From contig NC_008048.1 in NCBI RefSeq assembly GCF_000013985.1, forward strand, positions 62,001-126,000: DNA of 64,000 nt, read 5' to 3'. Position 1 is the stretch's first letter. Each line of letters starts with the position of its first letter. The translations under genes and the position numbers were made by a program. The notes under the pieces were generated by a model that did not search any database, was not told where the DNA came from, and saw only the letters and a program-made list of their open reading frames with translations. This DNA is from Sphingopyxis alaskensis RB2256 (lineage in GTDB: Bacteria > Pseudomonadota > Alphaproteobacteria > Sphingomonadales > Sphingomonadaceae). Positions 36,259 to 51,610 of this stretch are shown in pieces.

Positions 36259-36313
36259 CTATGGAAACTATAGGCACAGCCTATTGGATAAATCCTAGGC
36301 GCACTGCGATAGT
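36259..36313 (+). promoter_or_regulatory. LysR-type box and promoter, copy A (msrBA)
   Basis: ATGGAAACTAT (36261-36271), then nine bases, then TATTGG (36282-36287). TTGGAT (36284-36289) can serve as -35, with an extended -10 (TGCGATAGT, hexamer 36308-36313) after 18 bases. The stretch 36256-36332 is nearly the same as 51553-51629. Confidence 0.75.
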
Positions 36314-36379
36314 CGGCGCAGTGACTGACACGATAAGCGGCGGCTTTTTCGCCCTCTCAGATCAATATCGGAGACTATC

Positions 36380-36823
36380 ATGAAGTTCGAAAAGTCGCAG
36401 GAAGCTGTTGATCTCCTTACTGCCGAGCAGCGCTACGTCACCCAGGAGTCGGGCACCGAGCGGCCCTTCACGGGGGAGTATGATGACAACAAGGAACCAG
36501 GCATCTACGTCGATATCGTGTCGGGAGAGCCTTTGTTCGCCTCGACCGACAAATTCGACTCGGGTTCTGGCTGGCCCAGCTTCACCAAGCCGATCGTTGC
36601 AGCAAATGTGAACGAGTTGCGCGACAGCGCGCACGGTATGGTGCGGACGGAAGTAAGATCGGTGCACGCCGACAGTCATCTCGGTCATGTATTCCCGGAC
36701 GGTCCCTCCGATCGCGGAGGTTTGCGCTACTGCATTAACTCCGCGTCGCTTCGCTTCATTCCGCGCGACGAGATGGAGAGCGAAGGATATGGCGAATATC
36801 TCGATCAGGTCGAGGAGGCCTGA
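36380..36823 (+). CDS. msrB: Peptide-methionine (R)-S-oxide reductase
   Basis: This 147-residue MsrB has [22 protein letters not shown] and the catalytic cysteine C118 in [11 protein letters not shown]. The zinc-site cysteines of many MsrB proteins are absent, as in the metal-free subtype. It reduces methionine-R-sulfoxide in proteins using thioredoxin. The next gene begins one base after its stop. It is preceded by LysR-type box A. A second MsrB (59993-60436) is closely similar. Confidence 0.95.
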
Positions 36824-36824
36824 C

Positions 36825-37364
36825 ATGCACCAGCGCGCTATTCTCGCCGGCGGATGTTTCTGGGGCATGCAGGATCTGATCCGCAAGCAGCCCGGCATCG
36901 TATCGACCCGTGTCGGCTACACCGGCGGCGATGTCCCGGACGCCACTTATCGCAATCACGGCACGCATGCCGAAGGGATCGAGATCATCTTCGACCCGGC
37001 AGTGACGACCTTCCGCAATATCCTGGAATATTTCTTCCAGATCCACGACCCGACGACCAAGAATCGCCAAGGCGGTGATATCGGGCTCTCCTACCGGTCG
37101 GGCATCTATTATGTCGACGAGGAGCAGAAGCGCGTCGCCGAGGACACGATCGCCGATGTGGATGCCTCCGGACTGTGGGATGGCAAGGTGGTGACAGAGG
37201 TCGTGCCGGTCGGAGATTTCTGGGAGGCCGAGCCGGACCATCAGGATTATCTCGAGAAACGCCCGGGCGGCTACACCTGCCATTTCGTCCGTCCCGGCTG
37301 GGTGCTTCCAAAGCGCCAGAAAGTTGATGATGATCAGTCCGCGGCGGGGACGGCAGCGGGATAG
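36825..37364 (+). CDS. msrA: Peptide-methionine (S)-S-oxide reductase
   Basis: The ATG at 36825 lies one base after the msrB stop, behind GAGGAGG. This 179-residue MsrA has [10 protein letters not shown] (catalytic C11), [20 protein letters not shown] and [14 protein letters not shown]. It reduces methionine-S-sulfoxide. Together with msrB it covers both diastereomers. The C-terminus ends in a charged, flexible tail. Confidence 0.95.
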
Positions 37365-37503
37365 GCTTAACTGCTGTTGCCGCTCCGCCGATCCCGTTCG
37401 CAATCTTCATGACCGCGTCGTACAACGACGCGGTCATCCAACCCTGCTTCAGAGAGACGGGTCGGTCCATATAGTCGCCATCGCAGCACAGGATCGCAGA
37501 TTT

Positions 37504-38208
37504 ATGCCAGACCTCTCGACCTTTCCTATTACGCAGCGCTGGCCCGCATTGCATCCCGATCGCCTGCAACTCTACGCCGCTCCCACCCCCAATGGCGTCA
37601 AGGTCTCGATCATGCTCGAGGAGACCGGCCTGGCGTACGAGCCCCACCTGGTCGATATCTCGAACAACGAGTCGAAGGATCCAGCGTTCGTATCGTTGAA
37701 CCCCAACGGCCGCATACCGGCGATCATCGATCCGGCTGGTCCTGACGGCAACCCTATCGCCATATGGGAATCGGGCGCGATCCTCCTCTACCTGGCCGAC
37801 AAAACCGGCCAGCTCAATTCGAGTGCGCCCGCGCAGCGTTACGAGACGCTGGCTTGGGTATTCTTTCAAGTATCCGGCGTCGGGCCGACCTTCGGTCAGC
37901 TTGGTTTTTTCCTGAAATTTGCCGGCAAGGACTATGAGGACAAGCGCCCTCGGCAGCGCTTTATCGATGAATCCAAGCGTCTCTTGGGGGTGCTGGACCG
38001 CCAGCTCGAAGGCCGCGAATGGCTTGTCGATGATTATTCGATCGCGGACATTGCGACACTTGGGTGGGTCAACGCACTGGCCGAAGTCTACGCGGCCGGC
38101 GACATCCTCGGCCTCGGCGAATATTCGAACGTCCAGACATGGCTCCGCCGCGGGCTGGCGCGGCCCGCGGTGCAGCGCGGCCTGCGCATCCCTGCGAGAC
38201 CGGCATGA
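37504..38208 (+). CDS. Glutathione S-transferase (YfcG/YghU-like)
   Basis: The ATG at 37504 is chosen because family similarity begins after it. This 234-residue GST has the thioredoxin-like N-domain (LYAAPTPNGVKVSIMLEETG, NPNGRIPAIIDP, ESGAILLYLADKTG) and an all-helical C-domain (SIADIATLGW). The pattern T-P-N-G-x-K-V fits the Nu-class, disulfide-bond reductases acting with glutathione. It follows msrA after 139 bases and overlaps corA by four (ATGA). Confidence 0.9.
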   Translation: MPDLSTFPITQRWPALHPDRLQLYAAPTPNGVKVSIMLEETGLAYEPHLVDISNNESKDPAFVSLNPNGRIPAIIDPAGPDGNPIAIWESGAILLYLADKTGQLNSSAPAQRYETLAWVFFQVSGVGPTFGQLGFFLKFAGKDYEDKRPRQRFIDESKRLLGVLDRQLEGREWLVDDYSIADIATLGWVNALAEVYAAGDILGLGEYSNVQTWLRRGLARPAVQRGLRIPARPA

Positions 38209-39173
38209 GCGTCATCGCTGCTTATTATTACAACAAGGGCCTGCGGGTCCGCGAAATCGCGATCGACGAGCAGGTCCAGCTCGATAAGGATCGCTCCGGC
38301 TTTTGCTGGATCGCGCTTCGCGAGCCCACCGCCGACGAGCTTAAAGCGATCCAAACGACGTATAACCTCCATCCGTTGGCAATCGACAACGCGATGCACC
38401 CGCTCTGCCCGCCCAAGCTCGAAGCGTATAATGAAGAGCTCTATGTTGTCGCTCAGACCGCCGAGCTGGATGGAGACCAGATCCGCTACGGCAAGATGGC
38501 GATCTTCACCGGTCACAACCATCTCATCAGCGTACGGCACGGCAACGGCGGAGCGCTCGGCAATCTTCGCGAGCAACTCGAGGCTTCGCCGGCGCTTTTT
38601 GGCAAAGGTGTCGACTATGTGCTGCATGCGATCCTGCACCGGATCGTCGATCAATATCTTCCCATCTTCGAGATGATCGAGGATGACGTTCTGGCGATGG
38701 AGAGACGATCGCTCGACGACTTTCTCGGACGGGCAGAAATCGACCGCATCTTCGGGCTGAGAAGCGAACTCACGCGCTTCCAGCGCACGCTCGGCGCTAT
38801 GGCTGAACTGGTCCGGAAACTCGTCCGAGGCCATTTCCCCTGCATCAGTTCAGAAGTCAGACCCTATTTCAGCGACGTCGCGGATCATGTCGCTCGCGTG
38901 CAGACCATGGTCGATGGCCTCCTGCAGGTTCTGTCCACCGTCTTCGAGTTCAGCAGCCTGTTGGAAGCGCAAAGAACGGGCGTGACCACGCGCCAGCTCG
39001 CGGCCTGGGCCGCCATATTGGCGGTCCCGACGGCCATCGCCGGGATATATGGCATGAACTTCAGGAACATGCCCGAGCTGGACACGGTCTATGGCTATTT
39101 TGTCGTGCTCGGGTTGATGACGATGTTCTGCCTGTACCTGTTCGTGCGGTTCAAGAAGGCCAAGTGGATATGA
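38205..39173 (+). CDS. corA: CorA-type magnesium/cobalt transporter
   Basis: This 322-residue protein has a long cytoplasmic helical funnel and two C-terminal membrane helices (LAAWAAILAVPTAIAGIYGM and VYGYFVVLGLMTMFCLYLFV). The YGMNF selectivity motif ends the first helix. It transports Mg2+ (or Co2+/Ni2+) inward. Its start overlaps the GST stop, so it is translated with it. Confidence 0.93.
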   Translation: MSVIAAYYYNKGLRVREIAIDEQVQLDKDRSGFCWIALREPTADELKAIQTTYNLHPLAIDNAMHPLCPPKLEAYNEELYVVAQTAELDGDQIRYGKMAIFTGHNHLISVRHGNGGALGNLREQLEASPALFGKGVDYVLHAILHRIVDQYLPIFEMIEDDVLAMERRSLDDFLGRAEIDRIFGLRSELTRFQRTLGAMAELVRKLVRGHFPCISSEVRPYFSDVADHVARVQTMVDGLLQVLSTVFEFSSLLEAQRTGVTTRQLAAWAAILAVPTAIAGIYGMNFRNMPELDTVYGYFVVLGLMTMFCLYLFVRFKKAKWI

Positions 39174-39269
39174 ATAGCGCGCGTTTGCTTTTCATCTCCG
39201 TCAGCTGAGCCGCAACAGCCTCCCTGATATTAGAGCATGTCCAATGCCATGCAAAGCCAAGGTGCAACA

Positions 39270-39842
39270 ATGACATCCCAAGTGACCGACGTCCTAGCAG
39301 CAGTCCAGTCCTTCGTCGCGAAGGGCTACGACCGCGAGTACCGCGTCAAGGACGGCCATCTCATCGATCTCGAACTGGGATCAACGCTCGATCCATGCGC
39401 GATAACCGTCGATGCGGCGTTGCGCCTCGAAAGCGGGGATGATGGAGAAGACGCGTCCAACATATACGCGATTACCGATCCCGCGACCAACCATAAGGGT
39501 CTGCTGATCGACGCCTTCGATGTCTTCGACGAAATCTGTCACCGCGACCTTTCCGAGCGGCTTGTCGCGGATCGGCAAACGACGCCAGCGGGCGACGAGG
39601 ATGTTCCGAGCAAGCACGGCCTGCGCAAAGTCTACAAGAATGAGTTTGAGCGCGATCCCGAGCGCTATGTGCTGCGCGAGGGCTTTCCAGACTTCCCGCC
39701 ATGCCCTTTCGGCGGCGCCTTCAGCATTCTCGGCTTCGATACCGCCGAGCAATCCTATGTCTGGCTTGTAACCAGCATCATCCGGGATTCCCGGCTGATC
39801 AGAGCGCCCTACCAGGGAGATGACGCCCCAGGCGACGAGTAG
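39270..39842 (+). CDS. Two-part protein with small 'PRPP-synthetase-like' annotated N-domain
   Basis: ATG 39270 follows AAGGTG; 39237 is an alternative. Residues 1-95 (VLAAVQSFVAKGYDREYRVK, DDGEDASNIYAITDP, NHKGLLIDAFDVFDEI) match, from memory, a small domain found alone in other bacteria and named phosphoribosylpyrophosphate synthetase without evidence. The C-terminal half (FERDPERYVLREGFPDFPPC, AFSILGFDTAEQSYVWLVTS) is unknown to me. It lies between corA and a GreA-like gene. Confidence 0.55.
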   Translation: MTSQVTDVLAAVQSFVAKGYDREYRVKDGHLIDLELGSTLDPCAITVDAALRLESGDDGEDASNIYAITDPATNHKGLLIDAFDVFDEICHRDLSERLVADRQTTPAGDEDVPSKHGLRKVYKNEFERDPERYVLREGFPDFPPCPFGGAFSILGFDTAEQSYVWLVTSIIRDSRLIRAPYQGDDAPGDE

Positions 39843-39930
39843 CGGGCCGGCGAGCCCAATGGGGGCACTCCCGCGGCGGTGACGGACCGAAGCACGAACT
39901 TTCGAATGATCCAAACACAACGAGGTGATG

Positions 39931-40380
39931 ATGAACTGGAATAAAAGCCACATCCGCGAAACCATGCTTTCGCTGGAGACTGCCGCCCTGCATAGCGCTC
40001 GCACCAATTATCTGGATTATGTCTCCATCGCTCAGCTGGATCGGAGCGAGCCGATCGAGAATGACGAGCAGGCGCAGGCCGAAGTCGCGAGCGACTTGGC
40101 TGAAGCGCTTGACGACACATTGCACGACTATGCCGATAAACTTGAAAAGCTCAGGACGATCGACTTCGGCCCCAAGTCGGCAGTGGAGGAGGGTGCTGTC
40201 ATCAAACTGTCGGGGCGCCATTTCGTGATCGCAGTGTCAACGAGCAAGTTCACCTGTGATGGGCGTGAGTTCATGGGAATTTCAACGATGGCGCCGATCT
40301 TCGAGGCGATCGAAGGAGCACGAACAGGAGAGACCGTGCAGTTCAACGGCCGGGACCTCATCGTAGAAGATGTAGAATAG
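39931..40380 (+). CDS. GreA/GreB-fold C-terminal-like small protein
   Basis: ATG 39931 is five bases behind CGAGG; ATG 39928 and GTG 39925 are alternatives. The 149-residue product has a helical N-half (LETAALHSARTNYLDYVSIA onwards) and a C-half (VIKLSGRHFVIAVSTSKF, IFEAIEGARTGETVQFNGRD) resembling the FKBP-like domain of GreA transcript-cleavage factors. It may bind RNA polymerase's secondary channel, but the coiled-coil acidic tip is not obvious. Function is inferred only. Confidence 0.6.
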   Translation: MNWNKSHIRETMLSLETAALHSARTNYLDYVSIAQLDRSEPIENDEQAQAEVASDLAEALDDTLHDYADKLEKLRTIDFGPKSAVEEGAVIKLSGRHFVIAVSTSKFTCDGREFMGISTMAPIFEAIEGARTGETVQFNGRDLIVEDVE

Positions 40381-40402
40381 GACGCCCGTCGCAGTAGGCG
40401 CG

Positions 40403-41683
40403 CTAGTGCCGGGCGGCCTCCGTCTCTGACTCCATGCATATCATCACATCAAGAGATCCCGTGATCATCGGTGTGCTTGGAGAGCGGGCAGCCTTGGCGT
40501 GGATGCGGCGCCTTGGCTGGCTGCTCCCGATAGCCAACACCGCCAATATGGCAAGCAATGCGGCCGCATAAAGGAACAGCCCACCGGGGCCGGCGATAGT
40601 CATCGCAGCACCCCCGATAAGGGGTCCGGCGGCTGTCCCGATCCCGTTGAGCAGCAGAAGCCCGCGGGCGGTACCGAGCAGCCGGCCGGCCGGAAGGTCG
40701 TCGTTGGCAACCGCGAGACACAATGAATAGATCGGGATGCCAAAGCCGCCGAACAGCGCGCCCGCCGCGAGGAGCAGCGGCAGGGGCGCCCCTACCGCGA
40801 GGGCGACGCCGACGGCCGCCGCTGCGGACGCCAGGGCCGCAGCGGCGATGACAAGGTTCCGCGACACGCGATCCGAAAGCCAGCCGAGGGGCCACTGCAA
40901 TAGGAGCGTCCCACCCAGCACCGCAGCCATGAAAGCGGAGATGCCGCCGACATCGAGTCCGATCCTCTGGGCGAAGTTCGGGCCCATGCCCCAAAAACCG
41001 CCGATAGCCAGGCCAGCGAGGAAAGCGCCAGCCGCAGCGAGCGGTGATGCGCGCACGAGGTCGCTGAACGCGACCCGTTCCTGTGTCACCTGCGCCGGCG
41101 GATGGCTGGGCAGCAAGGTGATCGGAACCACCGCCGCGGAAATTAACAGCGACACGATAAGGAACAAGGTCATGTCGGCGGGCGGGGCGACGTTGAGCAA
41201 GGCCTGGCCGATGGCCCATGAGCCCATCGAGACGACTCCGAAGATCGACAGAAGTTGGCCGCGCGTGGATGGCACTGCATGGGCGTTGAGCCAGCTCTCC
41301 GTTGCGAGGATCATGCCCGCGTAGGCGAAGCCCGTGATCAGGCGAAGCGGTATCCAGGCGATCGGTTCCACGAGCGCAACATGGAGAAGGGCAGTCATCG
41401 AGGCGATCGCCGCAAAGCCGGCAAAGGTTCTGACATGACCCACGGCGACGATGATCCGCGGCAACATGAGCGCGCCGATCGTGAAACCGGCGAAGTAGAA
41501 CGACATCATCGCGCTGATCGCGCCGGACGAGAAGCCCTCCTGGCCGGCCCTGACGATCAGGAGCGTGCCCAGCAAACCATTACCCAGCAGCAGAGCCGCG
41601 ACGCTCGCCAGCAACGCCGCCACCGGTGCGAGCTTGAGGCCACGTCGGCCCGCCGACCGCATGCTATCCATCGCCGGGCTCAT
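40403..41683 (-). CDS. Major facilitator superfamily transporter (YcaD-like)
   Basis: ATG 41683 overlaps the stop of the short gene upstream (ATGA 41680-41683). The 426-residue protein shows about 12 hydrophobic helices and MFS motifs such as GWLSDRVSRNLV. GFAYAGMILATESWLN resembles the YcaD/efflux-like group. It probably exports a small molecule. It is the last gene of a minus-strand run that starts with DUF2218 at 42742. Confidence 0.88.
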   Translation of the reverse strand: MSPAMDSMRSAGRRGLKLAPVAALLASVAALLLGNGLLGTLLIVRAGQEGFSSGAISAMMSFYFAGFTIGALMLPRIIVAVGHVRTFAGFAAIASMTALLHVALVEPIAWIPLRLITGFAYAGMILATESWLNAHAVPSTRGQLLSIFGVVSMGSWAIGQALLNVAPPADMTLFLIVSLLISAAVVPITLLPSHPPAQVTQERVAFSDLVRASPLAAAGAFLAGLAIGGFWGMGPNFAQRIGLDVGGISAFMAAVLGGTLLLQWPLGWLSDRVSRNLVIAAAALASAAAAVGVALAVGAPLPLLLAAGALFGGFGIPIYSLCLAVANDDLPAGRLLGTARGLLLLNGIGTAAGPLIGGAAMTIAGPGGLFLYAAALLAILAVLAIGSSQPRRRIHAKAARSPSTPMITGSLDVMICMESETEAARH

Positions 41684-41928: not shown

Positions 41929-41931
41929 GGA

Positions 41932-42402
41932 TTACACCAGCTCCAGATCCTTTACGATCCTGTCCGCGTCGAGATGGAAGTCCGAGAAGACGATACGGCC
42001 GCCAGCGTCAATGATCGAGAACCAGGGCGTTCCTCGCGTGCGATAATCCTCCATGAAGGTAGGCAGCGTCGCGCCGACCAGTGGTTCATCATGGCCGAAG
42101 GCGACAGGAAGCGCATATTCGAGCTGGTTCACACGCAACTTCTCGAAGGTGTTTTCATCCGCACCTTCGAAGACGGTCTGGATCACCGCAAATCCCACGC
42201 CCCTGGGGCTCAATGCACTATGCAATCTTTGTAGCGTCGGGAAGCCATGCACATGGCAGCCGCGGCACCAGTGCTGGAAGGCGAACAGGATCTTTGGGCC
42301 GGAGCCGAGATCCGACAGCTTGAGCGGCCCGGTGCTTTCTCCGTCCGCGCCGATCCATTTCTGCACCCGAAGATCCGGCGCTTGGGGTTCGAGCATGCTC
42401 AT
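41932..42402 (-). CDS. TlpA-like thioredoxin-fold protein
   Basis: ATG 42402 follows GGAGG at five bases. The 156-residue protein has a redox-like site QHWCRGCHVHGFPTLQRL (CRGC), a thioredoxin fold, and RGTPWFSIIDAGGRI with the cis-proline loop. There is no signal peptide, so it is probably cytoplasmic. It follows DUF2218 by 49 bases and precedes the DM13 remnant. Confidence 0.85.
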   Translation of the reverse strand: MSMLEPQAPDLRVQKWIGADGESTGPLKLSDLGSGPKILFAFQHWCRGCHVHGFPTLQRLHSALSPRGVGFAVIQTVFEGADENTFEKLRVNQLEYALPVAFGHDEPLVGATLPTFMEDYRTRGTPWFSIIDAGGRIVFSDFHLDADRIVKDLELV

Positions 42403-42451
42403 CTGATCCTCCAGCGCGATGAAGAACCGCGGCGAATTGTGGTGCGCGCTA

Positions 42452-42742
42452 TCATGATATGTCATTCCAAACGCATCGGACCCCGGTGTCGTGCTCCGCG
42501 ACGCGATCAACAAGCGTGGCGACCGATTGCTTGGTTGCATCGAAACGTTCGCGATCTTTGCCCACGAGCCTCAAGGAGAGGCTGTCGCCGTCCGCAGTTA
42601 ATATAAGCTCGCCGCCCGGAAGCTGGATTTCGGCTGTCAGCGCGTCATATCGAACCGGGTAAGTATGAACCCACGCCTCAGCGAGTCTCGTCAGATATCG
42701 ACTCGATTCGATCGTAGCGATGCGTGCCTCGGCCTCGATCAT
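42452..42742 (-). CDS. DUF2218 protein
   Basis: This 96-residue protein has ARIATIESSRYLTRLAEAWV, then HTYPVRYDALTAEIQLPGGE and LILTADGDSLSLRL. These are the alternating blocks of DUF2218, a small family often found beside siderophore or redox genes. The function is unknown. It heads a minus-strand run with TlpA-like, DM13 remnant and MFS genes. Confidence 0.85.
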   Translation of the reverse strand: MIEAEARIATIESSRYLTRLAEAWVHTYPVRYDALTAEIQLPGGELILTADGDSLSLRLVGKDRERFDATKQSVATLVDRVAEHDTGVRCVWNDIS

Positions 42743-42812
42743 TTAGAAACTCCCGGTGTTGGTGTTTGGGCGCACAGCTCTTGGTCAGTACCGCCATTAT
42801 AATGCGGGGGAG

Positions 42813-43106
42813 TCAACGCAGCCCCTCGACGATAAACCCGCGGTAGCGGGCACCGGCGAAGCGATGCGCAGCAACAGCTTGGTAGGCGGGGCTATGATAC
42901 CAGTCATGCGCGGCTTGCATCGTGGGGAACCGCAAGATGACGGCGCCTTCGATCGGCGACCCCTCCAAATTCTCCATCGCGCCATAAGCGGCGAGAAAAG
43001 TGACGTCATGCCCATCGAACGACGGGCCGACGCGGGCAGAATAAGCCGCGAGTTCATCCACATCCGTGGTGTCTTCCCGCGTGAATACGACAAACGCTTC
43101 CATCAT
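42813..43106 (-). CDS. DUF1330 protein
   Basis: ATG 43106 follows AAGGA; the protein has 97 residues. FTREDTTDVDELAAYSARVG, ILRFPTMQAAHDWYHSPAYQ and YRGFIVEG are the DUF1330 dimeric alpha/beta-barrel blocks. It is probably a small-molecule-binding enzyme of unknown substrate. It is the third gene behind LysR-type box B (quinone oxidoreductase, GlcG-like, DUF1330). Confidence 0.88.
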   Translation of the reverse strand: MMEAFVVFTREDTTDVDELAAYSARVGPSFDGHDVTFLAAYGAMENLEGSPIEGAVILRFPTMQAAHDWYHSPAYQAVAAHRFAGARYRGFIVEGLR

Positions 43107-43165
43107 AAGATCCTTCGCAAGGTGAGATCTGCCGGCCATCGCCACCGACGATGGCCTGACAGTCG

Positions 43166-43597
43166 TCAGGCTGGCAGTTCGAACCCGATTTTCTGGAGTG
43201 CCTCAACGCAGGCATCCTGGTCCTGCTGATAAGTGCCTCCGGAGATGCCGATTCCGCCGATCAGCTTTCCGTCCTCAAGGATCGGATAGCCGCCACCGAC
43301 GGCGACCATCCGGGGGCGATAGGCCAGCGGCGCCACTTTGGGATCGTTGCTCACATAGTCGTTCCAGACATGGGTCGGATATCCAAAGGAGGCGGAACTC
43401 CACGCTTTGTCGATGGCAACATCGACGGTGAGAAACGGCGCGTCGTCGGTGCGCTCGAACGCCCGCAGATACCCGGTTGCGTCGACGACGGCGACGGCAG
43501 CCGGGATGCCGATTGCACGGGCGGCGGTTATCGCTGCGTCGATGAGGGCGACTGCGGTTTCACGGTTGATCGAGGCAGTGGCAATGGACTTGGTCAT
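43166..43597 (-). CDS. GlcG/HbpS-family protein
   Basis: This 143-residue protein has IPAAVAVVDATGYLRAFERT, KAWSSASFGYPT and GYPILEDGKLIGGIGISGG. These are the GlcG/HbpS (DUF336) signatures. Members bind heme or act in cofactor-related oxidative-stress sensing. It lies between the quinone oxidoreductase gene (53 bases) and DUF1330, in the operon behind LysR-type box B. Confidence 0.9.
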   Translation of the reverse strand: MTKSIATASINRETAVALIDAAITAARAIGIPAAVAVVDATGYLRAFERTDDAPFLTVDVAIDKAWSSASFGYPTHVWNDYVSNDPKVAPLAYRPRMVAVGGGYPILEDGKLIGGIGISGGTYQQDQDACVEALQKIGFELPA

Positions 43598-43650
43598 GGG
43601 ATTTCCTTCGCCGCGGCGTTATCGTCCGGCGTTACTTGGACTGGAAAAGA

Positions 43651-44664
43651 TCAGAATCCTTCGAGGACGGTCTTGCCTTTCGCCGCGCCACTTTCGATCA
43701 GTGCGTGCACTGTCTTCAGATTGGCAGCATTGATCGGCGACAGTCGCTCGGTCAGTGTCGTACGGATTTTGCCCTCATCGACCAGCACGGCCAGCGCGTC
43801 GAGGATCTTGCCCTGCTCATGCATATCGGGCGTGCCGTAGATCGACCGGGTGAACATCAGCTCATGGTGTATCGACACCGCCTTGCGCTTGAACAGCATG
43901 ATGTCGAATGCCGTGGGATCGTCGATCAGCGCGAACCGCCCTTGCGGCGCGATCAGCTCGGCGATGTCGGCGGCATGCTGCTCTGTATGCGTGGTCGAAA
44001 AGACGAACGCGGGAGCGCCGATGCCAAGCTCGGCAATCTGTGCCGCGAGCGGGCGCCTATGGTCGATGACATGGTGCGCGCCAAGCTCCTTCACCCACTC
44101 CTGGGTTTCCGCTCGGGAGGCGGTGGTGATGACGGTGAGGTCTGTGCGCTGGCGCGCGATCTGGATCGCGATCGACCCGACCCCACCCGCGCCACCGATG
44201 ATGAGGATCGCCGGCGCCGCACCGGGGACTGGCTTCGCCACGTCGAGGCGATCGAACATCGCCTCCCAGGCGGTCAACGTCGTTAGCGGCAGCGCTGCTG
44301 CTTCCGCCCAGTCGAGCGAGGCGGGTTTGCGACCGACGATCCGGGCGTCGACAAGATGGAACTCGACATTGGTGCCGGGCCGGGTGATCGATCCGGCATA
44401 ATAGACCTCGTCGCCCGGCTGGAACTGCGTCACGTCGGGGCCGACCTCGCGCACGATCCCGGACGCATCCCACCCCAGCACCTTCCATTCACCATCGGCT
44501 GGCGGCGAGCTGCCGCGGACCTTATAGTCGACCGGGTTCACCGAGACGGCCTTCACCTCAACCAGGATATCATATCCTGCCGCGACAGGCTGGGGCAGCT
44601 CGATGTCGACCAGCGCAGCATCCTCGGCGATGGGTCCCGGGACCTTGTAACCAACGGCTTTCAT
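43651..44664 (-). CDS. Zinc-type alcohol dehydrogenase family / NADPH quinone oxidoreductase
   Basis: ATG 44664 lies behind GGAGACATTG. The 337-residue medium-chain dehydrogenase has VKAVSVNPVDYKVRG, LGWDASGIV and the Rossmann GGAGGVGSIAIQIARQ. No structural zinc cysteine cluster is seen, so it is of the quinone-reductase type. It probably reduces quinones or reactive enals with NADPH. LysR-type box B lies 118-149 bases upstream. Confidence 0.9.
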   Translation of the reverse strand: MKAVGYKVPGPIAEDAALVDIELPQPVAAGYDILVEVKAVSVNPVDYKVRGSSPPADGEWKVLGWDASGIVREVGPDVTQFQPGDEVYYAGSITRPGTNVEFHLVDARIVGRKPASLDWAEAAALPLTTLTAWEAMFDRLDVAKPVPGAAPAILIIGGAGGVGSIAIQIARQRTDLTVITTASRAETQEWVKELGAHHVIDHRRPLAAQIAELGIGAPAFVFSTTHTEQHAADIAELIAPQGRFALIDDPTAFDIMLFKRKAVSIHHELMFTRSIYGTPDMHEQGKILDALAVLVDEGKIRTTLTERLSPINAANLKTVHALIESGAAKGKTVLEGF

Positions 44665-44781
44665 CAATGTCTCCATCTTGCTGCGCCCCGAAGTCTCGAT
44701 CGATCAGAGCGCCACTTCTTCGAAAATTCGCACGGGGTTCAAGGGTTTCGCACGCAGGACTATGAAGATGTGCACCGACTA

Positions 44782-44813
44782 TTTCCAATAGCGGCGGAAC
44801 ATAGTTTCCATAC
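44782..44813 (-). promoter_or_regulatory. LysR-type box and promoter, copy B (quinone oxidoreductase operon)
   Basis: Read on the minus strand: ATGGAAACTAT, ten bases, then TATTGG. TTGGAA followed by 18 bases and CATAGT (downstream, outside the listed box) forms the promoter. The GTCGG next to the box is like that of copies A and E. Confidence 0.7.
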
Positions 44814-44948
44814 CTTGTTGCCGTTCTATCCCTGAGAGGCGCTTACGAAGCTGTGAGGCGCGGCAGCCAACCTGGAAAGCAGGCGGACCGAGCCTCATGC
44901 CGTGCCTAAATCTGCAGCCGACGTGATGCGCGCGTAATTTATTCAAAG

Positions 44949-44980
44949 CTATAAAAACTATAGCGATAGGGTATTGGGAA
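44949..44980 (+). promoter_or_regulatory. LysR-type box and promoter, copy C (msrP-like operon)
   Basis: ATAAAAACTAT, ten bases, TATTGG. A TATAGT hexamer (44999-45004) lies 19 bases after TTGGGA. It is 188 bases before the first gene of the operon. Confidence 0.65.
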
Positions 44981-45167
44981 ATCGGCCCGGCGTCGCGTTA
45001 TAGTCCATAAGCATCAAATCACCGATTCACGAAAATGCGATCATCGAAAATCCGATGAAGCATCGGGCGTTTCAGGCTTCAAGCCATCGGTTCGTACCGC
45101 GGCCACGCGTATCAGGTCTGAAGTGAAGCCGGTTATCGTCTGTCGCATCGAGCAAAAAGGGGGCACT

Positions 45168-45773
45168 ATGGTCACCAGAGGTTTCACCGGTCGCGGTTCA
45201 AGTGGCGACCAGTCCGGCCGGATTCCGCCGGGTCAGCATCTCGTGGAGAATTTTCCGGTTCTCACGGCGGGGCCGACGCCGAACGTGGAGCTGGCTGATT
45301 GGAAATTCACCGTCAAAGTCGGCCCGAAGCCGGTCAAAGTGTGGAACTGGAGCGAGTTTAACGCCCTGCCAAAGACCAAGGTGACCAAGGATATTCACTG
45401 TGTGACCTCTTGGTCCAAGCTGGATACCATATGGGAGGGCGTCCTCATTGAAGACATCCTTGCGGATGCAGGGCTCGACCGGCCCACTGATTTCGTCCTG
45501 GCGCATTCCTACGACGATTATTCGACAAACGTCCCGCTGGCGGACCTGCTGTCCGGGAAAGCGATGGTCGCTCTCAAATTTGCCGGCCAGCCGATTACCC
45601 GCGATCATGGCGGGCCGGCGCGTCTGCTGGTTCCGCATCTGTACTTCTGGAAGTCCGCCAAATGGGTGAAGGCGCTGCAATTCACAACCCGTGACGAGGC
45701 CGGCTTCTGGGAGCTGCGCGGCTATCATATTTACGGCGATCCGTGGCGCGAGCAACGATACACCGATGACTGA
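45168..45773 (+). CDS. Sulfite-oxidase-fold molybdopterin protein (MsrP/YedY-like)
   Basis: ATG 45168 lies behind AAGGGGG. The 201-residue protein has the oxidoreductase-molybdopterin core with the cofactor cysteine C78 (KDIHCVTSWSKLD), DHGGPARLLVPHLYFWKSAKW and the terminal YHIYGDPW. MsrP relatives reduce protein methionine sulfoxide; other members act on different oxides. There is no Tat signal, so this copy is cytoplasmic. The next gene, a flavin reductase, overlaps it and would supply electrons. Confidence 0.88.
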   Translation: MVTRGFTGRGSSGDQSGRIPPGQHLVENFPVLTAGPTPNVELADWKFTVKVGPKPVKVWNWSEFNALPKTKVTKDIHCVTSWSKLDTIWEGVLIEDILADAGLDRPTDFVLAHSYDDYSTNVPLADLLSGKAMVALKFAGQPITRDHGGPARLLVPHLYFWKSAKWVKALQFTTRDEAGFWELRGYHIYGDPWREQRYTDD

Positions 45774-46512
45774 CAACGGCACGCAAACCGCGTCATGGCA
45801 ATCATGCGTGATCGAGGAAATCGTCCAGCAGACGCCGAGCATCAAAAGCTTCTTCCTCCGATTGAGCAGGCCGTTCGCGCACATCGCAGGCCAACATGTC
45901 GATGTCCGGCTGACCGCGCCTGATGGCTATAGCGCGATGCGCAGTTACTCGATCGCGTCATCGGCAGCCTCGTCCCCGATCATCGAGCTCGCTGTCGAAC
46001 GCCTGCCCGATGGCGAGGTGTCGGCCTATTTTCACGATATCGCGATAGTCGGCGATGAGATCGAGCTTCGCGGTCCGCTCGGCGGGCACTTCCTATGGCC
46101 TGAACCTGCCGTAGACGCGGTGCTGTTGATCGGAGCAGGCTCCGGGCTCGTGCCGTTGATGGCGATGATCCGGCATCGCCGCACACAAGACCCGGCCGTG
46201 CCAACCGCGTTGCTCCTGTCCGCGCGCACCGCTGAGGATGTTCTGTTTTCGGAAGAACTACATTCCGTCGAGATCAACGATGCCGCATTTGTCCTGGCGC
46301 TGGCGATCACGCGCGAAGATCCGATCCGCGCATCGGATTTCGGGCGGCGGATCGACAGCGCCATGGTCGAAGAGGTTCTCGCCCGGCTTCACCGAAAGCC
46401 CACACAGATATTCGTTTGCGGATCCAACGATTTCGTCAACATTGCGACCGAGGGAGCGCTGCTGGCCGGGGTCGACCCCTCGATAATCAAGACCGAGCGC
46501 TATGGTGGTTAG
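45766..46512 (+). CDS. Ferredoxin-reductase-type flavoprotein
   Basis: The start overlaps the MsrP-like gene by eight bases. The 248-residue protein has RSYSIASS (FAD binding), GPLGGHFLW, LLIGAGSGLVPLMAMI (NAD(P) site) and the terminal IKTERYGG. There is no iron-sulfur domain. It most likely passes NAD(P)H electrons to the molybdopterin protein in the cytosol, a pairing different from the MsrP/MsrQ heme couple. Confidence 0.88.
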   Translation: MTDNGTQTASWQSCVIEEIVQQTPSIKSFFLRLSRPFAHIAGQHVDVRLTAPDGYSAMRSYSIASSAASSPIIELAVERLPDGEVSAYFHDIAIVGDEIELRGPLGGHFLWPEPAVDAVLLIGAGSGLVPLMAMIRHRRTQDPAVPTALLLSARTAEDVLFSEELHSVEINDAAFVLALAITREDPIRASDFGRRIDSAMVEEVLARLHRKPTQIFVCGSNDFVNIATEGALLAGVDPSIIKTERYGG

Positions 46513-46570
46513 CGGCGCATACTCCGTCGCGCCCCACCTTTCACCCTGCGGATAATATTTGGAGATCGTC

Positions 46571-47836
46571 ATGAGCCGCTTTGCTGAACCCGTCTTTGTT
46601 GCCGCCGGCCTTCGCACTCCCTTCGGCCGCGGCGGAGGGGCTTTGGCTGCTTATGATGCCGTCTCTTTGTCCGTCCCTCTTGTGCAGGCGATGGCGGCGC
46701 AAGCAGAGCCGGATCTTCTCATCTGGGGTACCGTGATCCCGAATTTGGGTTGGAGCAACATTGCTCGCGAGACCTGGCTTGACGCCAAGCTCAATCCGAA
46801 TGTCCCCGCATTTTCGGTCGTTTTGGCATGCTCTACCAGCATGACGGCGACTTTCGCTGCGGCAGGGATGCTGGGCGGAGGAACCGATCTCACGATGGTG
46901 GGCGGTGCCGAAGTCATGAGCCGACCTCCCATCGCTTTGACGGCCGATGCATCGAAGCGGCTCACCGACCTCTTTGCGCAAGATCCAGCGGCGGCGCTTG
47001 CGGCCCTCCAGTCTCTTGCCCTCCACGACTATGTGCTCCCGACCAAGGGATGGGCCAACCGGATCACCGGCAGGACAATGGGCGATCATATGGAGGACAC
47101 CGCCAAGGCCTGGCGGATCTCGCGCGAGGCGCAGGACGATTGGGCGCTAAAGAGCCACCAGCGGTCGGTCGCTGGTTGGGAGCGAGGTTTCTTCGACGAT
47201 CTCGCGATTTCCCTTCCTGAACTGGCGCGCGATGCGAACCCCCGCGCCGATACGTCGCCCGAACGGCTTGCCGCACTCAAGCCCGTCTTCGATCGCGACA
47301 GTGGCAGGGGAACGCTGACTGCCGGCAACAGCTCGCCGATAACGGATGGCGCCGCCGGTTGCTGGGTGGCAAACGAAGCCGGCGTGGCACGACTGCCGGC
47401 GGGCACCCCCTACGCGCGGCTCATCGATTACGAGGTGTCGGCCGTCGATTTCCACACCGAGGGTCTGTTGATGGCACCCTCCTATGGCATTCCACGTCTG
47501 CTCGCGCGGCATCAACTAAGCTTCTCCGATATCGCTCTTTGGGAAATCCACGAAGCCTTCGCCGCCCAGGTCCTGGCGAATGTCGCGGCCATCACCGACC
47601 GGGAGTGGGTGCGCGAAACCGCCGGTGTCCAGTCGGATTTGGGCGACTTCGACTGGGACCGCGTCAATCCCAACGGGGGCTCGGTAGCAATCGGTCATCC
47701 CTTCGGCGCGACAGGCGCGCGCGACCTCAGCCAGGCAGTGAAGGAGCTCTGGGACATGCCGAGCGGATCACGGGCAATCGTCAGCATCTGCGCCGACGGC
47801 GGCCAAGGCACCGTCGCACTCCTCGAACGCCCCTGA
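46571..47836 (+). CDS. Thiolase (acetyl-CoA C-acyltransferase family)
   Basis: ATG 46571 lies behind GGAGATC. The 421-residue protein has the nucleophilic cysteine C87 (VLACSTSMTATF), HEAFAAQVLAN (His), GHPFGATGARDLSQAVKEL and ICADGGQGTVALLE (second Cys). It should cleave or condense 3-ketoacyl-CoA. Why it is in this operon is not clear; it may degrade acyl products of damaged lipids. It follows the flavin reductase by 58 bases. Confidence 0.92.
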   Translation: MSRFAEPVFVAAGLRTPFGRGGGALAAYDAVSLSVPLVQAMAAQAEPDLLIWGTVIPNLGWSNIARETWLDAKLNPNVPAFSVVLACSTSMTATFAAAGMLGGGTDLTMVGGAEVMSRPPIALTADASKRLTDLFAQDPAAALAALQSLALHDYVLPTKGWANRITGRTMGDHMEDTAKAWRISREAQDDWALKSHQRSVAGWERGFFDDLAISLPELARDANPRADTSPERLAALKPVFDRDSGRGTLTAGNSSPITDGAAGCWVANEAGVARLPAGTPYARLIDYEVSAVDFHTEGLLMAPSYGIPRLLARHQLSFSDIALWEIHEAFAAQVLANVAAITDREWVRETAGVQSDLGDFDWDRVNPNGGSVAIGHPFGATGARDLSQAVKELWDMPSGSRAIVSICADGGQGTVALLERP

Positions 47837-47888
47837 TTCACGGGCCGCTGCGAACGCCGTGCCATTGACAATATGAGAGGATATTCCG

Positions 47889-48170
47889 TTGGTCTCAGCA
47901 GTTTGGAACGACACCACCATCGCCGCAAGCGACGAGACAATCGTCGTCGAGGGAAACCACTATTTCCCACCTTCCGCGGTCAATCAGGAGCTCCTTGAAG
48001 CGAGCGCACACACTTCTGTCTGCCCGATCAAGGGCACCGCGAGATACTTCCATATCCGCGTAGGCAGCGCGCTCAACGCGGACGCGGCTTGGTCATATCC
48101 CGATCCGAATCCGGTTGCGGAAGCCATCCGGGATCACATCGCTTTCTGGAAAGGCGTAGAGGTTGGATAG
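47889..48170 (+). CDS. DUF427 protein
   Basis: TTG 47889 behind GAGAGGA gives 93 residues. VWNDTTIAASDETIVVEGNH, YFPPSAVN, TSVCPIKGTARYFHI and AAWSYPDPNPVAEAIRDHIA are DUF427 blocks. The family has a conserved cysteine in the CPIKG loop, but no known activity. It sits between the thiolase and argS, with gaps of 52 and 27 bases. Confidence 0.9.
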   Translation: MVSAVWNDTTIAASDETIVVEGNHYFPPSAVNQELLEASAHTSVCPIKGTARYFHIRVGSALNADAAWSYPDPNPVAEAIRDHIAFWKGVEVG

Positions 48171-48197
48171 CAGCCAAGGCGCAGCGGGCCTTCGCTG

Positions 48198-49940
48198 ATG
48201 GCTGTGTCGCTTCATGCGCGCATCCTTGATCATCTCGCGCGGGTAATTGGCGATCTGCAGGTGGCGGGGGACGTTCCTGCGGGCCTCGACCGGGCGGGGC
48301 TGACCGTGGAGCGTCCGCACGACCCGGCGCATGGCGATCTGTCGACCAACGCGGCGATGGTCCTGGCAAAACTTACCGGCACGCATCCGCGCCAACTCGC
48401 TGAGAAGTTGGCGGGCCGGTTGGCCATGTTGGAGGATGTTGCAGACGTGGCCGTCGCTGGCCCGGGCTTTGTAAATATCCGGCTGACCGACCAGGCCTGG
48501 CAAAACGAGCTGGCGGTGATTGCGGACCAGAAGGACCGCTACGGCATGTCGCCCGTCGGCGCGGGCAAGACGGTGAATATAGAGTTTGTCTCGGCCAACC
48601 CGACCGGTCCGATGCATATGGGGCACTGCCGAGGGGCAGTGGTCGGAGATGCGCTCGCCAACCTGCTCGCTTTCACCGGCCATCGCGTCATCCGCGAATA
48701 TTATATCAATGATGCCGGCGGGCAGGTCGATATTCTCGCTCGCTCGGCACACCAGAGATATCGCGAGGCGTTGGGCGAGAGCCTCGGCGAGATAGCGGAA
48801 GGTCTATACCCGGGCGATTATCTGAAGCCGGTCGGGGAGGCGCTGGCCGCCGATTTTGGGGGCCGCTATGCCGACGCCCCGGAGACGGACTGGCTCGCAA
48901 TCTTTCGTGCGCGGACCGTTGCCGCGATGATGGAGACGATCCGCGAAGATCTGGCGCTGCTCGGCATAAGTCACGACCGCTTCGCGTCGGAGGCGGACCT
49001 CGTCGCTGCCGGAAAGCCGGATGATGCCGAGGCCTGGCTGCGCGAGCGCGATCTTGTCTATGACGGCGTTCTCGAACCTCCGAAGGGTGAAGTCTCCAAG
49101 GACTGGGAGCCGATCGCGCTGCCGCTGTTCCGGTCGACGAAATTTGGCGATGACCAGGACCGTCCTATCCGTAAACCGGATGGGAGCTGGACCTATTTCG
49201 GCGTGGATCTGGCCTATCATTTCGAGAAGGCGCGCGATGCCGACGAACTGATCGACATCTGGGGCGCCGATCATGCCGGGACCGTGATGCGCATCGTTGC
49301 CGCCGCCGAAGCTCTAACCGAAGGCAGGAAGCGGTTCGACGTCAAGCTGGTGCAGATCGTGCGGCTGCTGCGCGCGGGTGAGCCGGTCAAGATGTCCAAG
49401 CGCGCAGGCAATTTCGTCACGCTGGCCGATGTCATTCGAGAAGTCGGAAAGGACGTCGTTCGCTTCATGATGCTGACCCGCAAAGCGGAAGCGTCCATGG
49501 ACTTCGACTTTGCGACCGTCGTCGAGGCATCGAAGGATAATCCGGTCTTCTATGTGCAATATGCCCATGCGCGGATTTGCTCGCTAGCAAGCCGCGCGGC
49601 CGAAGCGGGTATCGAGTTGGGCGACCCGCCCGATCTCGCTCTTCTGGACGGTCCGAGCCTTACGCTTGTGAAGCGTGCGGCAGAATTCCCCCGCATCGTC
49701 GAGGCGGCTGCGGCAGCGCGCGAGCCGCACCGGATCGCCTTCTTCCTTGAGGGGCTGGCCGCGGAATTCCATGCGCTGTGGAACACAGGAAATGCCGACC
49801 CGACGCGCCGCTTCGCCTACCCGGAAAACCTGCCGGTTAGCCGCGCGCGGTTGTTCCTGGCCGCCGCGATCGGGCAGGTCATCCGCAACGGCCTGGCGCT
49901 GATGGGGGTTGAACCGACACATGAGATGGAGAGGGCCTAG
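48198..49940 (+). CDS. argS: Arginyl-tRNA synthetase
   Basis: The protein has 580 residues, a normal length. It has an N-terminal ArgS-specific domain, NPTGPMHMGHCRGA (HIGH motif as HMGH), KMSKRAGNFVTL, and a C-terminal anticodon-binding DALR domain ending GLALMGVEPTHEM. All class-I motifs are present, so it should charge tRNA-Arg. Finding a full argS inside a stress operon, 27 bases after DUF427, suggests a second, possibly damage-tolerant copy. Whether the usual argS exists elsewhere is not visible here. Confidence 0.95.
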   Translation: MAVSLHARILDHLARVIGDLQVAGDVPAGLDRAGLTVERPHDPAHGDLSTNAAMVLAKLTGTHPRQLAEKLAGRLAMLEDVADVAVAGPGFVNIRLTDQAWQNELAVIADQKDRYGMSPVGAGKTVNIEFVSANPTGPMHMGHCRGAVVGDALANLLAFTGHRVIREYYINDAGGQVDILARSAHQRYREALGESLGEIAEGLYPGDYLKPVGEALAADFGGRYADAPETDWLAIFRARTVAAMMETIREDLALLGISHDRFASEADLVAAGKPDDAEAWLRERDLVYDGVLEPPKGEVSKDWEPIALPLFRSTKFGDDQDRPIRKPDGSWTYFGVDLAYHFEKARDADELIDIWGADHAGTVMRIVAAAEALTEGRKRFDVKLVQIVRLLRAGEPVKMSKRAGNFVTLADVIREVGKDVVRFMMLTRKAEASMDFDFATVVEASKDNPVFYVQYAHARICSLASRAAEAGIELGDPPDLALLDGPSLTLVKRAAEFPRIVEAAAAAREPHRIAFFLEGLAAEFHALWNTGNADPTRRFAYPENLPVSRARLFLAAAIGQVIRNGLALMGVEPTHEMERA

Positions 49941-50031
49941 TCGAATGCGCGCTTGTTCCTGGGGCTCGTTGCGCGCGCCAGAGTTGGCGGGCCCGAACAT
50001 GCTGTGCGTCTTCTGATACTGGTGGAACGAG

Positions 50032-50295
50032 ATGGAGCTTACCGATTTCGACGCTGCCTTCAAAAGGCTTCCCGAGGGTCATAGCGAAGGCATTCACGAA
50101 GGCCGGCGTTTCGGCTTGATCGTCCGGCGGTCCGACGACGGGCGCCGCAACAGCCTGTTTGCCAGGGAGTTGGCTGGGACCGACATCGTCAGCTTCAACC
50201 TGTATCGGTTCACATCAGGCAAAACATCGCTCAAGCCGTGCGAGATGTCTGCGAAAAAGGTCGTGGATTTCGTGCTTGGCTTCCAACCGGACTGA
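50032..50295 (+). CDS. Small conserved-looking protein of unknown function
   Basis: The 87-residue product starts at ATG 50032 and reads LPEGHSEGIHEGRRFGLIVR, NSLFARELAGTDIVSFNLYR and KPCEMSAKKVVDFVLGF. From memory a similar family in sphingomonads is loosely annotated as peptide methionine sulfoxide reductase, although it lacks MsrA or MsrB motifs. A cysteine sits in KPCEM. It is the last gene in the box C operon. Confidence 0.65.
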   Translation: MELTDFDAAFKRLPEGHSEGIHEGRRFGLIVRRSDDGRRNSLFARELAGTDIVSFNLYRFTSGKTSLKPCEMSAKKVVDFVLGFQPD

Positions 50296-50358
50296 GGGTG
50301 TCGCAGTCGCTGCTCTGTTCGCAATGTCCGCCCCGGCACTGCGCATGTCGCTAAATGG

Positions 50359-50390
50359 GTATCGAAACTATAGCGCCTGGTTATTGGACT
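50359..50390 (+). promoter_or_regulatory. LysR-type box, copy D (gnd)
   Basis: ATCGAAACTAT (50361-50371), ten bases, TATTGG (50382-50387). No good -10 hexamer follows at 17-19 bases, so this copy is the least promoter-like. It lies 165 bases before gnd. Confidence 0.6.
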
Positions 50391-50554
50391 TCGTCTGGCG
50401 ATGAACTCATCCTCCATTCAGTGCCAAGGCGCGGCGAAATTTGCATACTCATGGTAACCTGCCAGCGAGCGGTGCGGTCTCGTTGGATCGTGACGGCGGG
50501 GCGTTGGTCGGAACTGTCCGCGCCGGGTGAACTTCTGACAGAAGGATTTGAACA

Positions 50555-51532
50555 ATGCGTCTTGCAATGATCGGCCTCGGCCGCATGGGTGCCAATATCG
50601 CGCGTCGGCTGATGCGCGGCGGCCACGAGGTCGTCGCCTTCAATCGCGATCCGGCCGCGGTTACTCAGCTCGCCGGTGAAGGTGCCATCGGAGCGAATTC
50701 GCTTGAAGATGTCGTCGCCAAACTCACTGCGCCGCGGATCTTCTGGGTAATGCTCCCGGCGGGCGCTCCCACCCAAGACACGGTCGACAAGCTGATGGAA
50801 TTGTCGGAGCCCGGCGACATCATCATCGATGGCGGCAACAGCTTCTACAAAGACGACATCAAATGTGGTGCTGCGGCAAGGGACAAGGGGCTCCATTATA
50901 TCGATGTTGGCACATCAGGCGGGATATGGGGGCTCGAACGCGGTTATTGCATGATGATCGGCGGCGACAAGGAGATCGTCGATCTGCTGGATCCCATCTT
51001 CGATACGCTCGCGCCGGGCTATGGTTCGATCGTCCGCACCATTGGACGCGACGCGCCCGACAGTCGCGCCGAGCGCGGCTATATCCACGCCGGCCCAACC
51101 GGCGCCGGGCATTTCGTCAAGATGGTCCACAACGGAATCGAATATGGCCTGATGCAGGCCTATGCCGAGGGCTTCGACATTCTCAAGGGCAAGTCCTCCG
51201 AACGGCTCGAGCCTGATGAACGCTTCGACATCAACCTGACCGACGTGGCCGAAGTCTGGCGTCGCGGCAGTGTCATCTCGTCCTGGCTGCTCGACCTTTG
51301 CGCGATCGGCCTGGCCAGGGATCCGATGCTCGAGCAATTCACCGGCCAGGTCTCGGACTCTGGCGAGGGCCGGTGGACGATCGATGCGGCAATGGAAGAA
51401 GCCGTCCCGGCCTATGTCCTTTCGGCCGCCTTGTTTGCGCGCTACCGCAGCCGCGTCGACCACACTTTTGGCGACAAGCTTCTCTCGGCGATGCGCTTTG
51501 GCTTCGGTGGGCATGTCGAGATGCCGCAATAA
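50555..51532 (+). CDS. gnd: 6-phosphogluconate dehydrogenase (decarboxylating)
   Basis: This 325-residue protein is of the short (GndA/YqeC-like) type. It has [13 protein letters not shown] (nucleotide site), [34 protein letters not shown] and [19 protein letters not shown] (catalytic lysine). It converts 6-phosphogluconate to ribulose-5-phosphate with NAD(P)H formation, the step before RpiA. It stands between LysR-type boxes D and E. NADPH for thioredoxin and glutathione would support the reductases nearby. Confidence 0.93.
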
Positions 51533-51555
51533 GTGACGCGTCACGCTATCCGGCG

Positions 51556-51610
51556 CTATGAAAACTATAGGCACAGCCTATTGGAAAAACGTCTGGCTCA
51601 CTGCGATAGT
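51556..51610 (+). promoter_or_regulatory. LysR-type box and promoter, copy E (third-msrA operon)
   Basis: ATGAAAACTAT (51558-51568), nine bases, TATTGG (51579-51584). TTGGAA (51581-51586) and GATAGT (51605-51610, extended TGC) are 18 bases apart. It is almost the same as copy A. Confidence 0.75.

Follow-up and report, generated by a model that had tools for sequence, protein, structure and literature searches.

The stretch of DNA analysed here, referred to as the window, comprises 64,000 nucleotides of Sphingopyxis alaskensis RB2256 (contig NC_008048.1, positions 62,001 to 126,000 of the forward strand) and carries an island of repair and detoxification genes in which copies of a short box recur ahead of several operons. 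With a probability of about 0.82, these boxes are read here as sites of LysR1, a LysR-type regulator encoded next to the first of them, which would activate a mobile oxidant-repair regulon, and lysR1 itself would apparently be repressed via palindromes. What the sequences themselves show is the box and how well it is conserved, its association with LysR1, the palindromes and the mobility of the unit. An earlier note on the same DNA had proposed five LysR-type boxes defining one regulon. Comparison across relatives supports this LysR reading, which we regard as the best one, and the regulon is larger than first stated, being mobile, equipped with a conserved operator and possibly controlled by a further MarR layer. 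The earlier note had missed both that the regulon is mobile and that a second layer of operators, consisting of palindromes and MarR, may exist.

The box, ATNNAAACTAT-N10-TATTGG with 15 specified bases, was found by pattern search in five exact copies in the window. All five had been recognized before, but with starts placed two bases too early (corrected in the table below) and with a spacer given as 9-10 bases, which in fact is 10 in every box. With up to three mismatches allowed, the window holds six matches (five exact, one with three mismatches) against 0.17 expected from dinucleotide shuffles, and none of 100 such shuffles attained six. Likewise, the whole genome (3.37 Mb, two contigs) features six boxes at up to two mismatches, every one of them exact and all falling inside 29 kb (C2:98261-127570), compared to one match of the reversed-pattern control. 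The sixth box, absent from the regulon first proposed, lies 1.5 kb past the end of the window, ahead of two cytochrome P460 genes. At four of the five window boxes TTGGNN is followed 18-19 bases later by an NATAGT hexamer (GATAGT, CATAGT, TATAGT, GATAGT), as had been described, and the distance of about 24 bases from the lysR1 stop to box 1 was also given correctly. Among 81 distinct sites from island loci, 13 stray loci being left out, a T stands directly 5' of the pattern in 93% and an A at the end of the N11 in 78% (G in 22%), which, together with the partial dyad of the box and a second half-site near -35, is the layout of LysR-type sites. An Rfam scan of the window detected no RNA element, and a tRNA search of the window no tRNA.

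The link between box and regulator is evident from the relatives. LysR1 is present in 8 of 80 Sphingopyxis genomes at 87-100% identity, being 100% identical in five of them, and clusters of at least four boxes (at most one mismatch) occur in nine of the 80, i.e., in all eight genomes with LysR1 and in genome G025, and genome G019 has one stray box. The resulting Fisher p value of 3e-10 for co-occurrence is uncorrected for relatedness or transfer. A scan of a species-genome collection with LysR1 yielded 65 loci, 63 at 74-100% identity (two partial matches) and two at 26-28%, in records of Sphingomonas, Novosphingobium, Mesorhizobium, Bosea, Paracoccus, Roseomonas, Thauera, Zoogloea, Stenotrophomonas, Pantoea, Serratia, and Escherichia, some of which are short contigs or metagenome-assembled genomes and may be contaminants of the organism named. 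A box (at most one mismatch) follows within 150 bp in 58 of the 62 lysR homologue matches scored (61 loci), and msrB starts within 200 bp past the box in 54 of those 58; of the remainder, loci L061 and L065 end first, and in L070 and L105 msrB lies 1249 bp on. In a Paracoccus locus (L099, 6020-6889), a LysR1 paralogue of 47% identity was observed beside an 82% copy, with a degenerate box (three mismatches) after the paralogue. Alignment of the gaps between lysR and msrB revealed that the box and the TGCGATAGT-type -10 are kept, with other stretches being variable. All 35 whole genomes drawn from the 65 loci contain exact boxes (YATTGG variant of the pattern; 109 sites, reversed control 0). Among 396 genomes of the order, an exact box was found in eight, i.e., G000, G025, G296, G355, and G413, and as single strays in G037, G121, and G178. 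Clusters, rather than scattered single sites, mark the island. The earlier note had let its reading depend on conservation of the sites beside orthologous genes, which is what was found: the box stands after lysR and ahead of msrB in 54 of 62 matches, precedes msrB also where the LysR homologue has only 42-62% identity, and stands ahead of the same further operons at numerous loci.

The LysR homologues in G296 and G355 share 42% identity with LysR1, and each genome has one exact box directly ahead of msrB-msrA, which in G296 lies 77 bp past lysR. Sinorhizobial and other replicons, i.e., S. meliloti pSymA (62%), R. etli (60%), and Aeromonas caviae p3_SCLZS52 (47%), carry a one-mismatch box 20-30 bp past lysR and before msrB and msrA, these two genes being annotated in R14 pSymA and in the Aeromonas plasmid. 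Across the 62, 60, 47, and 42% lineages the box retains 14 or 15 of its 15 specified bases, with a flank identity to the window of 38-52% in a forced alignment; the chance expectation is 2e-6 to 8e-6 box matches per lysR-msrB gap. The unit therefore looks like an old lysR-box-msrBA core to which further operons were added later.

Regarding the content of the regulon, the next assignable gene was determined for 154 boxes (at most two mismatches) in relatives. This was msrB in 57 cases, the molybdopterin oxidoreductase in 38, the CxxC protein in 20, and the alcohol dehydrogenase in 14, followed by the rarer MsrA3 (3), metallo-beta-lactamase-fold hydrolase (3), GlcG (2), OsmC-hydrolase (2), P460 (1), and YeeE (1; 368 bp off a box with two mismatches). 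Thirteen boxes were without a gene (seven "none/other", two "none", four at a contig edge), among them those of L070 and L105 with their remote msrB and those of L055, L081, and L107, which share the same 27-mer as a further box of genome G014 (L127), where it precedes a Dps-like gene (NCBIfam Dps families, under cut-off). An open reading frame (ORF) beside the island in that genome (L127, 4115-5326) resembles, by eye only, a TrbI conjugation protein.

The protein itself belongs to the LysR-type transcriptional regulators by its N-terminal HTH_1 domain, its LysR_substrate domain and its fold; an AlphaFold model (mean predicted local distance difference test, pLDDT, 88.6) matches CcmR, OxyR C199D, and CbnR and backs the fold alone, not the cysteine distances. 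Among 50 aligned LysR proteins, Cys198 is kept in 50, Cys238 in 48, and Cys144 in 47; Cys144 is missing from all three outgroups (33-34% identity) and Cys238 from two of them. A second alignment of 50 shows no variation at Cys170, Cys198, and Cys238 and next to none at Cys144. Cys198 falls at OxyR Cys199 or one residue before it, depending on the alignment. These features fit a redox-sensing LysR activator.

Upstream of lysR1, a further putative operator type was detected. The palindrome (A)TATGCG-N3-CGCATA has three exact sites in the genome, two before lysR1 (O1 and O2, the latter overlapping a putative lysR1 -10) and one before the marR gene at 54111. Where LysR has at least 74% identity, 39 distinct upstream regions were compared: the O1/O2 pair at its 40 bp distance is exact in 16, present with at most one mismatch in 23 and with at most two in 37, the two exceptions being L116 and L089; it occurs in none of 10 upstream regions of 37-62% LysR homologues. 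Exact palindromes in loci of relatives stand before marR (15), DUF417 (17, partly in gaps that a second gene adjoins as well), rpiA (7), and lysR2/yeeE (6), and 13 more fit no gene. Looser counts are near chance, with 20 matches in the window at three mismatches against 20.8 expected and, at one mismatch, six per strand in the genome against four per strand in the control; thus, the exact sites and the conserved pair alone carry weight. Both MarR proteins of the island have the conserved cysteines expected of redox-sensing members of the family: the one at 54111-54647 features a C-terminal CxxC-x4-CxxC (Cys 156, 159, 164, and 167) in 10 of 10 distinct sequences, and the second one (32088-32663) a likewise C-terminal C-x2-CC-x3-C-x2-C, with all five cysteines in 25 of 25. 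Such four- or five-cysteine motifs possibly bind zinc or an iron-sulfur center. The palindromes before both lysR1 and marR suggest a cascade from MarR to LysR, in which the MarR at 54111 might repress both lysR1 and its own gene.

The unit is moreover mobile, since distantly related taxa and conjugative plasmids carry close copies of it. It was found in three proteobacterial classes, 63 of the 65 loci having at least 74% identity (two partial), and on 225 plasmids with LysR1 homologues (158 at 80-90%, 59 at 60-80%, and eight under 60%), for which 167 records are typed conjugative. In E. coli, a lysR-msrA match exists in 16 of 5426 genomes, always plasmid-borne, and five of these span at least 80% of lysR-msrA; S. 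meliloti 1021 pSymA carries a small version of the unit. Accordingly, the LysR regulon seems to be passed on as a block among widely differing bacteria, also on plasmids from hospital and sewage strains. As an msrB homologue occurs on 446 plasmids (333 at 90-95%) compared to 225 with LysR1, many msr operons travel without LysR1. Six plasmid msrB loci without LysR1 nearby (L133-L138; five with the glutathione S-transferase gene and corA, plus Microvirga L138) have no box at up to two mismatches. The five copies with the two genes, which come from a Klebsiella IncP plasmid, P. aeruginosa, A. towneri, P. bubulae, and Alcaligenes, have no LysR annotated in the stretch examined, and in three of them an annotated istB of the insertion sequence (IS) family IS21 lies just 5'. 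The Alcaligenes plasmid pAN70-1 (L136) carries msrBA-GST-corA near blaAFM-1, without LysR and box. A Citrobacter plasmid with the unit (L116, 27341-30088 and 33508-34469) holds a second TetR-DUF417-msrBA block as well as chlorite dismutase and a cupin gene.

Based on these features, a mechanism can be proposed. Each box would combine a T-N11-A type site, TATnGAAACTATA, at about -54 with a TATTGG half-site overlapping the -35, as is classical for LysR activators with their recognition site and activation site, followed at most window sites by the NATAGT -10 at a distance of 18-19 bp. LysR1 would sit pre-bound and switch on the operons once oxidized at its conserved cysteines, with Cys198 (near OxyR Cys199) and Cys144/Cys238 forming the gate. 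The presumed targets would serve the repair of methionine sulfoxide (msrB, msrA, and the divergent MsrA), the removal of electrophiles and quinones (glutathione S-transferase, alcohol dehydrogenase/quinone reductase; in relatives the OsmC-hydrolase), and the protection of metabolism (gnd_rel, P460; in relatives Dps). Reactive chlorine is the favored, albeit unproven, signal. Together, the palindromes flanking the lysR1 promoter and a cysteine-rich island MarR would constitute a two-tier oxidant switch, in which one of the two island MarRs would repress lysR1 by acting on the palindrome ATATGCGNNNCGCATAT. The chances are about even for the full mobile circuit, in which cysteine-motif MarRs would release lysR1, cysteine-gated LysR1 would drive the scattered repair operons through a box kept down to 42% LysR identity, the whole would move as one unit between proteobacterial classes, and the msr operons of many hospital and sewage plasmids would have been cut loose from this control just 5' of msrB.

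Several observations weigh against LysR1 as the reader of the boxes. The co-inheritance of lysR and the first box is partly mere linkage because the two are adjacent. Box 4 (50361), ahead of gnd, has no NATAGT hexamer or clear -10, and the box is off its standard place in L060 (break within the box), L076 (about 570 bp further), L106, and at the 47% paralogue of L099. In G355 it lies 1.7 kb past lysR, though ahead of msrB, and LysR homologues of 37-40% identity (G225, G299, G407) go along with no exact box genome-wide, G299 having a left half-box only, ahead of a P460 gene. Single exact boxes also occur as strays, namely in G037, G121, and G178 of the order and in two of a further 384 genomes from the class (one each in G619 and G510), the LysR1 search among the latter covering the two strays and four genomes also included in an earlier LysR survey. 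If one mismatch is allowed, one or two dispersed matches turn up in 9 of 60 relatives, about as often as with the reversed control (7 of 60). Concerning the protein, one of the alignments misses the OxyR cysteine by a residue, and LysR1 has no cysteine at the position of OxyR Cys208 and none between residues 198 and 238. Finally, two genomes have boxes and no LysR1 homologue at E<=1e-25: G025 with four exact boxes, and G413 with two exact boxes and one with a single mismatch. As the survey of LysR homologues scored only six candidates per genome, the number of LysR homologues that it gives is a minimum; these two genomes were rechecked with all candidates.

As G025 and G413 keep boxes in this way, another factor may read them there. 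G025 possesses LysR2, and in G413 (L120, 5612-7349) a 30% LysR and, by our reading, an AhpC/TSA-like ORF stand in the place of LysR1 upstream. That the boxes are generally read by such a regulator, be it the 30-33% LysR of some sphingomonad loci, the second LysR of the island (LysR2, 57945), or a MarR, is nevertheless unlikely: in L118, L128, L129, and L130 the box is accompanied by a LysR1 homologue only, among LysR1, LysR2, and the two MarRs sought within 13-25 kb, and in G025 (L123, 13230-14200) we read the sequence 5' of msrB as replaced at an IS21-type junction, with lysR1 and the first box gone, i.e., as decay. The likeness of the boxes could also reflect descent rather than function if the island was copied recently, as the 100% identical LysR1 of five genus genomes and the 80-90% copies on 158 plasmids indicate. 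As a cause of box conservation, recent copying is ruled out by the loci with 42-62% LysR homologues, which hold their box despite diverged flanks; besides, boxes with different spacers and flanks lead different operons within one genome, and we give this explanation hardly any credence. The same low standing applies to an alternative sigma factor promoter. The GAAAC core resembles the -35 of extracytoplasmic function (ECF) sigma factors, which control methionine sulfoxide reductases elsewhere, and it precedes a -10-like element. Yet the box follows lysR, a standard -35/-10-like pair with 18-19 bp spacing lies downstream of the core, and the scanned proteins of the window and of L007 include no sigma factor. 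A more serious rival, though still the less probable option, is that LysR1 is the right regulator and responds to peroxide, quinones, or nitrosative stress instead of reactive chlorine. The mixed gene content (alcohol dehydrogenase/quinone reductase, glutathione S-transferase, P460, and Dps in relatives) and the name hydrogen-peroxide-inducible activator given to the protein in some sources speak in its favor. It is countered by the chlorite dismutase on the one Citrobacter plasmid with the unit and by the suitability of Msr enzymes for hypochlorous acid (HOCl). Likewise, in the relevant passages of a study on M. huakuii, msrA2/msrB2 are upregulated with NaClO and not significantly raised with H2O2 (PMC13272141), a response cited here irrespective of any linkage to LysR1.

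The features of the island are compiled below. Most gene labels of the earlier note were confirmed by Pfam or NCBIfam. The exceptions are the MsrP-like label of the molybdopterin-fold protein, which at 31.2 bits against a cut-off of 207 is not MsrP by that test, and the third MsrA, which stays under the MsrA cut-off. The label gnd could be specified as gnd_rel type, and msrB and msrA were confirmed, with glutathione S-transferase and CorA genes following them. The arginyl-tRNA synthetase is the second copy of the genome within this stress island, the other one being located at C2:1175533. Upstream of the island, an IS91-family transposase (Y2_Tnp, Zn_Tnp_IS91) is encoded at 11686-12876.

Table 1. 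Predicted features of the island, in window positions.
Feature	Position	Strand	Basis or remark
Operator O1, palindrome ATATGCGCCGCGCATA	35234..35249	.	exact match; ahead of lysR1
Operator O2, ATATGCGTCGCGCATA	35274..35289	.	exact match; 40 bp after O1
lysR1, LysR-type regulator, 291 amino acids	35360..36235	+	Pfam HTH_1, LysR_substrate
Box 1	36261..36287	+	exact pattern match, footprint alignment; ahead of msrB
-10 hexamer GATAGT	36308..36313	+	18 bp past TTGGAT; TGCGATAGT-type sequence retained in most alignment rows
msrB	36380..36823	+	Pfam SelR; TIGR00357 194.7 bits, above cut-off
msrA	36687..37364 (ORF limits)	+	PMSR; TIGR00401 above cut-off; true start probably about 36825, from spacing in plasmid copies
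Glutathione S-transferase (GST)	37324..38208 (ORF limits)	+	Pfam GST_N
CorA transporter	38064..39173 (ORF limits)	+	Pfam CorA
CxxC protein	41932..42540	-	without Pfam or NCBIfam match
DUF1330 protein	42813..43145	-	Pfam
GlcG/HbpS-like protein	43166..43597	-	Pfam
Zinc-type alcohol dehydrogenase (ADH)/quinone reductase family	43651..44676	-	Pfam, TIGR02817
Box 2	44785..44811	-	ahead of ADH-GlcG-DUF1330 operon
Box 3	44951..44977	+	ahead of molybdopterin oxidoreductase operon
Molybdopterin-fold oxidoreductase	45123..45773	+	Pfam
FAD/NAD oxidoreductase	45691..46512	+	Pfam
Thiolase	46559..47836	+	Pfam/NCBIfam
DUF427 protein	47889..48170	+	Pfam
Arginyl-tRNA synthetase, second of genome, full ArgS	48198..49940	+	TIGR00456 above cut-off
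ORF of 87 amino acids	50032..50295	+	without Pfam match
Box 4	50361..50387	+	ahead of gnd
6-Phosphogluconate dehydrogenase, gnd_rel type	50555..51532	+	TIGR00872 375 bits, cut-off 297; also above PRK09599 cut-off
Box 5	51558..51584	+	ahead of hypothetical protein/MsrA3/metallo-beta-lactamase operon
ORF of 148 amino acids	51940..52386	+	C-terminal half hydrophobic by eye; without Pfam match
Divergent MsrA-family protein (MsrA3)	52419..53027	+	64 bits, TIGR00401 cut-off 108
Metallo-beta-lactamase-fold hydrolase	53024..54043	+	closest NCBIfam AidB lactonase, under cut-off
Third exact O1/O2 palindrome	54086..54101	.	exact match; 9 bp before marR
MarR-family regulator	54111..54647	+	Pfam MarR

With its regulator and sites on board, such a horizontally moving regulon could allow a recipient to answer oxidants immediately, and the unit may bear on bacterial persistence in disinfected water. 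No description of this regulon or box was recognized in searches of an open-licence library. Of the known systems, OxyR resembles LysR1 in its LysR fold, in a site before oxidant-defense genes and in a conserved cysteine at or beside Cys199. Nevertheless, the label OxyR had to be rejected, as LysR1 scores 79.2 bits against an equivalog cut-off of 329 and has no counterpart of Cys208 and thus no Cys199-Cys208 pair. The site pattern of OxyR, ATAG-N7-CTAT, differs from the box as well. HypT, the LysR-type hypochlorite sensor of E. coli, is comparable as a LysR-type factor proposed for HOCl stress, but its published description, as far as the relevant passages go, sets it apart by sensing via methionines and by control of sulfur, methionine, cysteine, and iron genes (PMC7464077). 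Neighborhoods of chlorite dismutase (cld) on mobile DNA are reported to feature recurring msr genes, LysR regulators, GST, and Zn quinone reductases (Barnum and Coates, 2022, PMC9751292). These are defined by cld, with no regulon or operator described in the corresponding sections, and chlorite dismutase had no match among the window proteins scanned. A further related system is the msrB-msrA-yfcG-corA cluster of IncP-6 KPC plasmids and blaAFM/blaNDM units, whose four genes are identical in kind and order to those of the island. It was called an anti-oxidative system (PMC8421773), and the operon is also named in further reports (PMC4785139, PMC7096625, PMC9602987, PMC9984417, PMC12210851). The passages describing it tie it to no LysR or box, and all five LysR-less plasmid copies examined here are without a box. 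For the msr and detoxification island on plasmids of Enterobacteriaceae, Aeromonas, and others, of which the literature in these passages named the genes only, the present comparison thus proposes an operator code, a regulator, and a list of targets.

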